NCBI GenBank assembly: GCA_009746045.1
Contig: RPFO01001993.1
Location: 1 to 64,000, forward strand
Reading direction: 5' to 3'
Origin: Mesostigma viride
Taxonomy: Eukaryota; Streptophyta; Mesostigmatophyceae; Mesostigmatales; Mesostigmataceae
Length of the DNA: 64,000 nucleotides
A program made the translations under genes and the position numbers. The notes beneath the pieces were generated by a model. It was not told where the DNA came from, ran no database searches, and saw nothing but the letters and a program-made list of their open reading frames with translations. Of this stretch, positions 51,116-59,600 are shown piece by piece; the stretch's first letter is position 1, and each line of letters opens with the position of its first letter.

Positions 51116-54100
51116 ATGGGTGACGAAGAGGAGCCACGTGGCGGGGAGGGAGCACAAGATGCCCTCCAAGATCGACGCGGCGGCGAGGAAGATGATGCGG
51201 GGCGGGAGGCAGGAGGGGACAACAGCGAGGACAAGGCGACTGGAGGAGCTGACGGAAGCAATGACGAAAATGGCGCCGAATTGGGTAGGGAAGATGGAAA
51301 TGGGGAGGAATCTGAAGCACAAGCTGAAGGCGGAGGCCCTGGCGATGGCGATGCTGACAACGCTGAAGACCAGTCGGACGAACAAGAGGATGTTGCCAGC
51401 GCCAAGGCATTGGCTGCCCGGCGAGGCAGCTCGCCGACTCCTCTAAATGTAAAACAGGCTTCAAGAAAAGGAAGCGTTGCCTCCTCACCGAAGGTAGCAG
51501 TATCTCCGCCCGCATCCTCTCCTGGAGGGAGCGCGCCATCCAGTAGGACGTCGCGCAGCCAGGACAACTCCGGCACGGGAGGCCTCATGCCAGCTGTCGC
51601 GAAAGCCGCCAAGGACGCGTTTGAGAGCCTGGACGTGGAGGGTACTGGGACGATCCCAATCGAGCAGGTTGGTGGACCCGTGCGGGCCGGGCGGACCCAT
51701 GCAGTTACTTTTCTGACAACATTTTCACAATCCAACGCCCTTTCAGGCCTCAAGTGGCTTACTTTCACATGCTTCTCTAGCCTAAAAAGGGGGGTGCCTT
51801 GCGAAGCTGTAGGAGCTCATTTACGGGTGTTGTAGTACACCCATACTAATAATTATGAGGCATCCATTTCATAGCTCTACAATAAGCAACGCATCTCTAG
51901 ACAACCCTTGAATGCCCCTCACTCTTCATACCTGCTATCAGGGTACCACCACCAGGGCACACTTGCTATCAGGGTACTTGCGATGACTCGGTATCAGACA
52001 TGCAGCATTATGTTCTTGCATCCCATGGCGACGCGTCCTCCCAGCAGAGCGTTTTAAGTATCTGGACTGGAATCCCATAAATGCATCGACATCGGCATTG
52101 GATTGGAAAGAATGAATAGGAGCGGTTGCCTCGCGAAGCAAAAGTGGATTGTGTAGGAACACACCCTCTTCCCCTGCAAAGTATCTCATAAAGGAGCCTC
52201 ATGGCTGGGTGGCTCCGAGGTGTCTCATTAATTCTGGCATGCCATCAATACATGCTCATCCTGAACTGGTGCTGCGGATGGTGGTGATTGCATGCTGCGC
52301 TGGGGTGGGTTGGGTTATATTTGGATGGGTTGGGGTTGGGGGGGTCGGTGGTGTGGGGGCGGGGGGTGATAGGGGGGGCGAGGAGGGGGGATGCTGGGTT
52401 GGAGGGGGGTGGAGGAGGGGGGCGGGGGGGGCATGCTGGGGTGGGGATGGGCTGACTTTTGGTTTGGGTGGTCGGCACGTCCCCATTGTCTGGGTGCAGG
52501 TGCCAGAAGCGTTGGCCGCCATCAACATGCCCGCGTCGCCGCTCGACCTGCGTGTGGCGTTGTCCGCTACATGCCCTGAGTCCGCGTACGTAGGATCCCA
52601 CTTCACCTCGTGAACGGTTCTTGGCATGGTGAGGCCATCTGTCTAAAGCTCGGCATGTGCCTGTGGCCGTTGAACATGATGGTGCCAACACACTTGACGG
52701 TGGCAGCGACGTGCCCAGAGACCGCTTACGTTGGGCCGCTTACGTTGGACCACTTATGTTGGACCGCTGCTTTCGAATGAGCGCAGTTGATAAAATTGAA
52801 TGGTTGTTGACGCGTGCTCCCATTAACGTGGTGGTGTATGTGACCACACAGTTTTCCTCTGTATTCGGCCGGCCCATGTGCCGCAGCGTTCACGTTGCAG
52901 AGCGTTTGAGTTGCTGCCCTTGAACATGATGGATTTGACCCTGTGTATCCATGGGAGAACCAACACAGTCCATGTGTGCTGAAGGTAGAAACCGTCCTCT
53001 TGCCCACGTTCTGCGGAAACATGGCGTCCGTTGCCCTCCCTTCCCCTTGTCCCTCTGCGCTCCCCCTCCTCCACTCCTGAGGACCTCCTCCCCCTCCACT
53101 CTCGAGGACCTTCCCCCCCCTCCACTCACGAGGACCTCCCCTCCTCCACGCACGAGGGCCTCCTCCCCCTCCACGCTGGAACAGCCGTACCCGTGGGATT
53201 TCTCTTGCCCTCATCTCGCCCTTGCTTTGCCCTCCTCTCGCCCTCCTCTTGCCCTTCTCTTACCCTTGTCTTGCCCGTCTCCCCCTGACACACGATATGT
53301 GACACTTTCCTTGCCCTCACCCCCCGCGTGCCTGTCTCCTGCTGGAATATATGCGGGCGCTGGGATGCACATGGATTTTCCCTTGACCCTGCCGTGCCCT
53401 TCTCCTTGCTGGACACACTCGCGTGCAACGCAGTGACCGGCTGGACTTTGAGCAGTTCCGCCGCGTCGTGCGCTACATCCAGTTCGGCATCTCGCCTGAC
53501 TCTGCCAACACCCCGCTTAGGTAGGCGAGGGTGCCCGTGTGTTGGACGTTGAATAGGGAGAGAGAGGGAGAGAGGTGAGCGGCTTGACTTGGCCAACATG
53601 CCACTCAGGTAGGCGAGGGCACCCGTGTGTTGGACTTCGACTTGGTAGATGGGGAGAGGTGAGGGGCTTGACTCGGCCAACGCGCCGCTCTGGTAGGCGT
53701 GATGGTAGGGGATGCAAACATATGTGCCCTTATCCCCATCCCCCTCGCCCCCCCTTGTGGCCCTAATTTCCCACCCTTGCCCCCATTGGCCCCTAATCCC
53801 CCCCCCAACAGCCCCCCCTCGTCGGTCTCCATGGTGGGCGGCCTGGGCAGCACCCGCCCGTACCTGAACAGCGGCCACCTGAGCGACAACCCGGCGGTGC
53901 TCTCCTTTGTGCGCCAGCTGGAGGAGCACCGCCGCACATGCGAGCGAGAGGGGAGATACAAGGAGGCCAAGGTGGCCGCCGCCAGGCTGCAGGAGCTCAA
54001 GGTGAGGGGCGGCAGCATTAGGATCGTGGTTGCTATCAGACTGCTGGTCGGCAGAAGCATGGCAAGGTCGCTGCCGCGCGGCTGCAGCAGCAAAGTGTGG

Positions 54101-59232: not shown

Positions 59233-59600
59233 GCGAGTTCCTTTCTACGCGACAGGGCCGCGGAGGGTGCTGCAGGTGGCAGGGTTTGGTGAGGGTGGTT
59301 TACCGTATACGGCAGCACCGGTGAAGGTGGAGGCGGGCGCGGAGGGCGGTGGACAACGGTAGGGCTGGGGAGGGTATTCCTTTCACACGGCAGGGCCGGG
59401 GAGCAAGTGGCCTTGGTGACTAGGACTCTCGCGATTTCTTTCTTTCGCACCGGGCCTCGTGCGGGGAAGGTCTTTGGCGGACGCAGGGCCGGTGAAGGTG
59501 GCGGACGTGGTCGGGCGGGCGCGGATGGTGGTGAAAGAGGCGGCAGGGGCCGGTGAGGGTGATGGAGGCCTCAGGTCGGGAGCTGAGGGTGTGTTCCTTT
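59200..59600 (+). repeat. Repeated CAGGGCCGGTGA-type blocks after the last exon
   Basis: GGAGGCAGGGCCGGTGAGCG ends the last exon. CAGGGCCG(C/G)GGAG, GCAGCACCGGTGAAGGTGGAGG, CAGGGCCGGGGAGC, GCAGGGCCGGTGAAGGTGGC and GGGGCCGGTGAGGGTG follow at about 59253, 59311, 59393, 59480 and 59547. The pattern equals the duplicated donor edges of the other introns, which suggests that a donor exists at 59229 and that the coding sequence may continue. Confidence 0.7.

Follow-up and report, generated by a model that had tools for sequence, protein, structure and literature searches.

Introns of one gene in Mesostigma viride contig RPFO01001993.1 contain decayed copies of the edges of their own exons, and similar copies were found in kinesin and chaperonin genes elsewhere in the genome of this alga. 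The gene lies on the forward strand of a 64,000-nucleotide stretch (positions 1 to 64,000 of the contig, 56% G+C), referred to here as the window; the genome searched comprised 440 Mb in 2243 contigs. Two light-harvesting proteins encoded in it match chlorophyll a/b proteins of the green lineage, each having its best match in chain LHCI-2 of entry 9vfj, assigned to Euglena gracilis in PMC12577709, which indicates an alga with a green plastid. In the genes sampled the copies are direct and local, intron interiors carry such copies at nearly equal density, and copies of exon bodies are almost absent. We consider it likely that introns here lengthen by a general process of short tandem duplication, in which events that happen to cross a junction are tolerated and leave fading copies of the exon edge behind. 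An earlier note on this gene had proposed repeated tandem duplication across the exon boundary, with one intact junction kept and the copies decaying in the intron; this proposal is supported, and the feature recurs in other genes.

The proposed course of events is as follows. Direct tandem duplications, roughly 20-200 bp long at the junctions studied, would arise throughout introns. Inside an exon such a duplication would damage the protein and be removed; within an intron it would be neutral. When a donor is crossed, the upstream copy would still join exon to intron and the protein would be unchanged, while the spare exon end and donor would decay as intron; when an acceptor is crossed, the downstream copy would be kept. 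Junction-crossing duplications would thus be tolerated because one intact junction remains, and introns would come to carry decaying copies of the exon edges next to them as part of a general background of tandem duplication. We infer that the duplications are neutral and that splicing uses the original junction. If so, short tandem duplication is linked to intron length, with growth through spare border copies at no visible cost to the protein.

Exon-edge copies in the window gene

The gene has eight exons and seven GT-AG introns, which give a single 562-residue frame closed by a stop codon. It is described here as an EF-hand/coiled-coil gene; the EF-hand matches of the product are weak and lie under the Pfam cut-off. 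The exons, all on the forward strand, are located at 51116-51667 (exon 1, donor GTTGGT), 52500-52585 (exon 2, GTACGT, placed from the reading frame and the gene finder), 53434-53520 (exon 3, GTAGGC), 53812-54001 (exon 4, GTGAGG), 55408-55512 (exon 5, GTAGAT), 56138-56305 (exon 6, GTGAGG), 57658-57899 (exon 7, GTGGGC) and 58974-59232 (exon 8, including the stop codon).

Each exon edge (50 exon and 12 intron bases) was aligned to its own intron and the score compared with those from 100 dinucleotide shuffles. Five of seven donors and one of seven acceptors recur in their own intron with scores that no shuffle reached. The donors are those of exons 2, 3, 4, 5 and 6 (scores 30, 41, 35, 48 and 67) and the acceptor is that of exon 8 (score 38). 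By the same test no copy of donor 1 or of the other six acceptors was found in its own intron, and donor 7 is borderline (score 22, reached by 5 of 100 shuffles). Individual copies were scored against 500 shuffles each, with p values uncorrected for the number of tests. Thirteen of the 15 exon-border copies named in the earlier note were confirmed, 12 of them at p 0.000 and the one at 55678 at p 0.022. Those named at 52875 (exon 2 donor; score 12, p 0.93) and 58330 (exon 8 acceptor; score 16, p 0.16) were not. The donor coordinates in that note mostly mark where the copied exon edge starts rather than the junction itself.

The end of exon 2 with its donor is found again at 52695-52734 (score 30, p 0.000), in a decayed copy where GTACGT now reads TTACGTT. 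Two copies of the exon 3 end and donor follow that exon, at 53582-53633 (score 59, p 0.000) and 53666-53699 (score 38, p 0.000); the first lies within an 88-bp tandem array that runs across the exon 3 donor junction (53497-53699), detected with Tandem Repeats Finder (TRF). The exon 4 end is copied at 54055-54100 (score 35, 0/100 shuffles), a site absent from the earlier list. Intron 4 also contains a 29-bp minisatellite of 26 nearly identical copies on the forward strand (54259-55020). When considered as offspring of the exon 4 edge, it showed no detectable similarity to that edge (score 14, p 0.69). Exon 5 is followed by two copies of its end and donor, at 55541-55583 (score 49, p 0.000) and 55600-55636 (score 47, p 0.000), and by a weaker third copy of its end at 55663-55687 (score 23, p 0.022). 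The exon 6 edge has the most copies. The first, at 56366-56409 (score 73), belongs to an array with an 89-bp unit (56277-56492, TRF) and the second, at 56455-56492 (score 66), retains GTGAGG. Beyond these, the copy at 56917-56953 also has GTGAGG intact (score 49, p 0.000), and those at 56770-56810 (score 36, p 0.000) and 57006-57040 (score 24, p 0.000) are decayed and have lost the donor. The start of exon 8 and its acceptor region occur as a decayed copy at 58721-58766 (score 25, p 0.000), with a further copy of the exon start at 58870-58898 (score 38). Past the stop codon, the coding end and stop region are copied three times within 59389-59557, at 59389, 59476 and 59537 (scores 30, 35 and 26; p 0.000, 0.000 and 0.010), as the earlier note had indicated; no copy was found at a further site near 59280 (p 0.23). 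All of these copies are on the forward strand. TRF independently placed the arrays at 53497-53699 and 56277-56492 across junctions, and a third array (55552-55687) begins just past one.

Similarity had also been said to fall with distance from the junction. In the window gene the nearest copy does outscore the farthest at all four junctions with at least two copies, but the rank correlation of distance with identity over 14 copies is -0.07 (p 0.82). As a general rule the statement fails: over 112 copies at kinesin loci the correlation is -0.09 (p 0.32), and among 30 junctions with two or more copies, four of them in the window, the nearest beats the farthest at 18 of 29 untied junctions (p 0.26).

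Recurrence in kinesin and chaperonin genes

A search for the kinesin family gave 129 matches, of which 108 entered our tables and 106 fall within the stretches analysed; outside the window these merge into 43 stretches covering 179 kb. Exons were predicted with a gene finder that took its codon usage from the kinesin matches (third-position G+C 86% over 8003 codons) and its splice sites from kinesin introns and the window gene. It recovered 47 of 52 exon ends defined by homology, a set that overlaps its training data. At its working setting all 14 splice sites of the window gene were found, the splice tables having included that gene; it also placed a false intron in exon 1 and two 12-nt false exons in intron 6 at copied donors. 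With a stricter setting, exon 2 and the beginning of exon 3 went undetected.

The counts at kinesin loci are based on 136 donors and 127 acceptors, left after exclusion of two duplicate contigs, of exons that were of low complexity, shorter than 60 nt or weak in coding or splice score, and of junctions with less than 150 nt of intron. The duplicates, C622 and C1104, were removed before both the kinesin copy counts and the counts at junctions and interiors. C622 aligns to C2 without mismatch and with two 1-base gaps besides the ends, and C1104 aligns to C1926 without mismatch or internal gap; these near-identical stretches are probably residual duplicate assembly.

A copy was called at a score of at least 30, with low-complexity matches set to zero. 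Thirty of 136 kinesin donors and 13 of 127 acceptors have a copy of their edge in their own intron, and for 23 of these donors and 12 of these acceptors the alignment crosses the junction. Against introns of other genes the counts are 4/680 and 3/635 (7/1315 in total), and reverse-complemented edges gave 0/136 and 0/127. No copy was found with shuffled introns (0/408, donors only), with exon interiors at kinesin loci (0/87 and 0/85) or in the intron that flanks the exon on its wrong side (0/110 and 0/110); exon sequence compared with the remainder of its own exon gave 2/99. With introns defined by kinesin homology alone, a few models of which were low-scoring, copies are present for 8/23 donors and 2/23 acceptors (score at least 36, counted from alignments). 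Five chaperonin loci behave similarly, with copies in their own intron for 9/31 donors and 2/27 acceptors; here reverse-complemented donors gave 0/31 and introns of other genes 1/754. Of 21 dynein heavy-chain matches, 7 lie in open frames of at least 1000 residues, in contrast to the kinesin and chaperonin genes, which are dense in introns.

Since the controls with other genes, inverted edges, shuffled introns and exon interiors give almost nothing, we conclude that the copies are direct, local and common in the sampled genes. The absence of any excess of exon-edge similarity in introns had been named beforehand as the outcome that would count against the idea; in this gene sample the excess is present. 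Pooled over the two families, 39/167 donors and 15/154 acceptors recur in their own intron, so donors exceed acceptors (p 0.0015; p 0.006 in a version with a fixed target). The window gene, with five of seven donors, is richer than the pooled donor rate (p 0.009), as expected because it was chosen for showing the feature.

Exon borders, intron interiors and competing explanations

Borders and interiors were compared using 62-nt segments along exons and introns, a copy of each being sought in the next 300 nt with repeats of period 1-6 masked. Copies were found for 39/142 donor and 17/127 acceptor junction segments, and for 92/503 and 61/446 intron-interior segments on the donor and acceptor sides; deep exon segments (-124) gave 1/79 and 0/72. 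The copy result therefore persists after masking of short-period repeats, and of the 62-nt intron segments about one in five to seven retains a copy that can be recognised within 300 nt. Interior copies too are direct (68/385 segments at kinesin loci, against 2/385 inverted). A driving role of the border in duplication is not supported, since direct tandem duplications are almost as dense in the interiors of introns. Borders are at most mildly enriched, and at donors only: the acceptor ratio of junction to interior is 0.98 (gene bootstrap 0.55-1.66), and a mild preference for donors is possible. The exon edge probably looks special because its exon side is conserved and easily recognised.

An estimate of the rate of duplication comes from two contigs, C1641 and C887, that carry the same chaperonin gene and are probably alleles, a recent segmental duplication being the alternative. 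Seven alignment blocks cover 9.1 kb and contain 171 substitutions (1.9% divergence) and 44 insertions or deletions. Twelve of the latter are at least 8 bp long; by a position-randomised test six of these are tandem duplications and six are not. The six measure 49 bp (100% identity), 43 bp (98%), 18, 16 and 13 bp, with one 24-bp microsatellite difference of a 4-bp repeat. Leaving out the microsatellite gives 5/171 = 0.029 duplications per substitution (95% confidence interval 0.009-0.068), gain and loss being counted alike in these unpolarised differences. Three of the six lie within the chaperonin gene and are intronic, about 110 nt or more from predicted junctions; the remaining three fall in a stretch without a gene model.

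The same pair differs in other ways. A roughly 3.1 kb insertion, likely a mobile element, is present in the chaperonin gene copy of C1641 (about 3340-6470 of C1641:60700-68200) and absent from C887; around it the copies are otherwise 94-96% identical. Of the flanking 20 kb (C1641:40700-60699 against C887:349901-369900) no more than about 4.9 kb could be aligned within 4 kb of register, in five blocks that are included in the comparison above; outside the chaperonin gene structural differences seem to outweigh substitutions.

Simulated introns underwent substitution, tandem duplication at randomly chosen positions and deletion to balance it, next to exons kept nearly frozen; a duplication was discarded if it lay wholly in an exon or covered both junctions. 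At 0.016 duplications per substitution the copy density was 0.196 in interiors and 0.20 at donor junctions; with the longer units read from junctions, 0.010 per substitution gave 0.184 and 0.188. Thus about 0.01-0.02 randomly placed duplications per substitution reproduce the observed density. Both simulated rates lie inside the interval measured between C1641 and C887, so copy density calls for no mechanism at the border.

Several observations weigh against purely position-blind duplication. Donor junctions exceed interiors by a ratio of 1.50 (gene bootstrap 1.09-2.14; Fisher p 0.018), where simulations give 1.02-1.12, and carry 39 copies where 26.8 are expected (p 0.015). The exon part of the copies is also short. 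A copy was found for 28 of the 114 donor junctions examined; it spans the junction in 22 cases and lies wholly inside the exon edge in four. The 22 extend 7-50 nt into the exon (median 23), and one of them reaches at least 50 nt. A longer query gave copies at 38/134 donors, with exon-reach quartiles of 19, 28 and 38 nt and three copies at 60 nt or more. In the blind simulation with junction-measured units the median reach is 46 nt and 45% reach at least 50 nt, against the observed 1/22 (p 4e-5); this result depends on a list of units drawn up manually from copy alignments. The short reach needs a filter, a mutational bias or units shorter than assumed. The sample consists of two gene families and the window gene, with gene models made in this analysis.

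The donor excess and the reach of 7-50 nt would also be expected if duplication were coupled to the exon-intron border, for example through breaks where splicing meets transcription, making borders hot spots. We regard this as unlikely. Interiors are nearly as dense in copies, acceptors show no excess (17/127 against 61/446), and the three duplication differences within the chaperonin gene lie away from its junctions.

General duplication combined with filtering by splicing may instead account for the donor excess and the short reach: a copied site would be more likely to be used, and so removed, if it brought more exon along or if it was an acceptor. A bias in break positions or shorter true units are alternatives. 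When units averaged about 32 bp, simulated reach quartiles were 16, 26 and 43 nt, matching those observed; the same simulation undershoots elsewhere (repeat shift 53 against 96 observed; interior density 0.113). In all the DNA examined, the units of exact duplications measure 10-83 bp and are for the most part shorter than 30 bp; exact two-copy duplications have 0-12 nt of extra match at their ends, with larger values mostly in arrays. The scarcity of exon-body copies is not caused by exon calls hiding them, as ignoring predicted exons still gave only 2/120 donors and 1/116 acceptors with copies of the region -110 to -40. At pseudo-junctions placed inside introns 66/95 copies reach at least 50 nt, compared with 1/22 at donors; this control is biased by multi-copy arrays, and the reach comparison therefore rests on the simulation.

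It is conceivable, though we hold it doubtful, that a copied splice site turns dangerous once it carries more than about 30-50 nt of exon, which would explain both the 7-50 nt carried by most surviving donor events and their surplus over acceptor events, so that surviving events record the exonic context needed to compete. The match obtained with units of about 32 bp counts against this idea. Were it true, junction-crossing duplications would amount to a natural mutagenesis experiment on splice-site choice, and an annotated genome with a high rate of duplication could supply a count-based test of splice-site competition, comparing donors with acceptors and the amount of exon copied.

The copies might themselves be functional, as alternative donors or acceptors or as buffers under selection, and many are strong: 25 of 44 decoy donors score at most 1 unit below the real donor, and some are perfect donors. 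Their sequences make this very improbable. Of the donor copies that reach the junction position (44 including those of the window, copies within one array not being independent), 33 keep GT and 11 do not, where copy identity predicts 0.82, or 36 (p 0.16). Decoy GT is thus neither clearly guarded nor purged. The shift modulo 3 is 16/17/11, showing no frame preference, and among the 44 donor copies we saw no selection on GT or on frame. At acceptors AG is kept in 10 of 16 copies. Gene finders applied to such genomes will meet strong decoy donors just inside introns; ours was misled by two.

Little probability attaches to an origin of the introns themselves by tandem duplication of exon sequence (the AGGT model) or from mobile introner elements. 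Exon edges are indeed tandemly duplicated, and in window introns 2 and 4 the sequence around the donor weakly resembles that around the acceptor (scores 22 and 19, reached by 3 and 7 of 200 shuffles). Yet a score of 30 between the two surroundings is reached in 0/7 window and 0/23 kinesin introns, none of 143 intron stretches has a match in an intron on a different contig (at least 60 bp, E 1e-8), and intron interiors duplicate nearly as often as borders. Chance similarity or low complexity, for which the richness of this genome in simple repeats might speak, is refuted at these sample sizes by the shuffled (0/408), inverted (0/263) and mismatched (7/1315) comparisons and by survival of the copies after short-period masking.

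Elsewhere in the window, neighbouring open frames match the RhoGAP domain (42238-42657, just below the Pfam cut-off) and the WW domain (35464-35859). Long tracts of simple repeats occupy 1-1196, 11379-13459, 42732-43154, 44292-45389 and 57109-58584; copy numbers are in the tens, and in two tracts they exceed 200.

Comparison with known systems

The exon-edge copies are arranged head to tail and locally, as in direct tandem repeats and minisatellites. The introns do not resemble introners, since no similar introns were found at unrelated loci among the sampled loci compared; positions 52400-52600 of the window have a single match in the genome. Neither GT retention nor the shift modulo 3, assessed within one species, points to conserved, frame-preserving alternative splice sites. 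In the literature searched, at the level of titles and abstract openings and with few subscription journals covered, we found no description of introns packed with copies of the adjoining exon edges. Core-Reinhardtinia algae are, like this species, green algae with long introns, and the passages covered of the account of their introns (PMC8226300) do not mention exon-edge copies.

Tandem duplications make up most short insertions in flies and primates, according to the part of PMC2374710 consulted. Tandem duplication as the main source of short insertions is common to that report and to our reading; the units here differ in measuring tens to about 200 bp, in being very frequent and in meeting splice sites. 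As to molecular origin, the duplications may come from staggered breaks that are filled in and rejoined, or from replication slippage. In mammalian cells, breaks with 3′ overhangs are filled in by CST and polymerase alpha-primase to give small tandem duplications, as described in the portion of PMC8355091 available to us. There too the duplications are direct and tens of bp in length, and 43-bp overhangs were used in one set-up; that route was demonstrated in mammalian cells, and in this alga it is the size range of the duplications that is compatible.

Splice signals are also involved in intron gain by tandem genomic duplication, in which, by the excerpt of PMC3443670 consulted, one duplicated segment provides a new intron with its donor and its acceptor. 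In the introns studied here the two ends are not alike at a score of 30; an old origin of this kind, since decayed, is possible. Both processes duplicate in tandem a sequence that contains a splice signal. In the introns described here, however, an existing intron would be lengthened, and the copies are spare donors and acceptors rather than the ends of a new intron.

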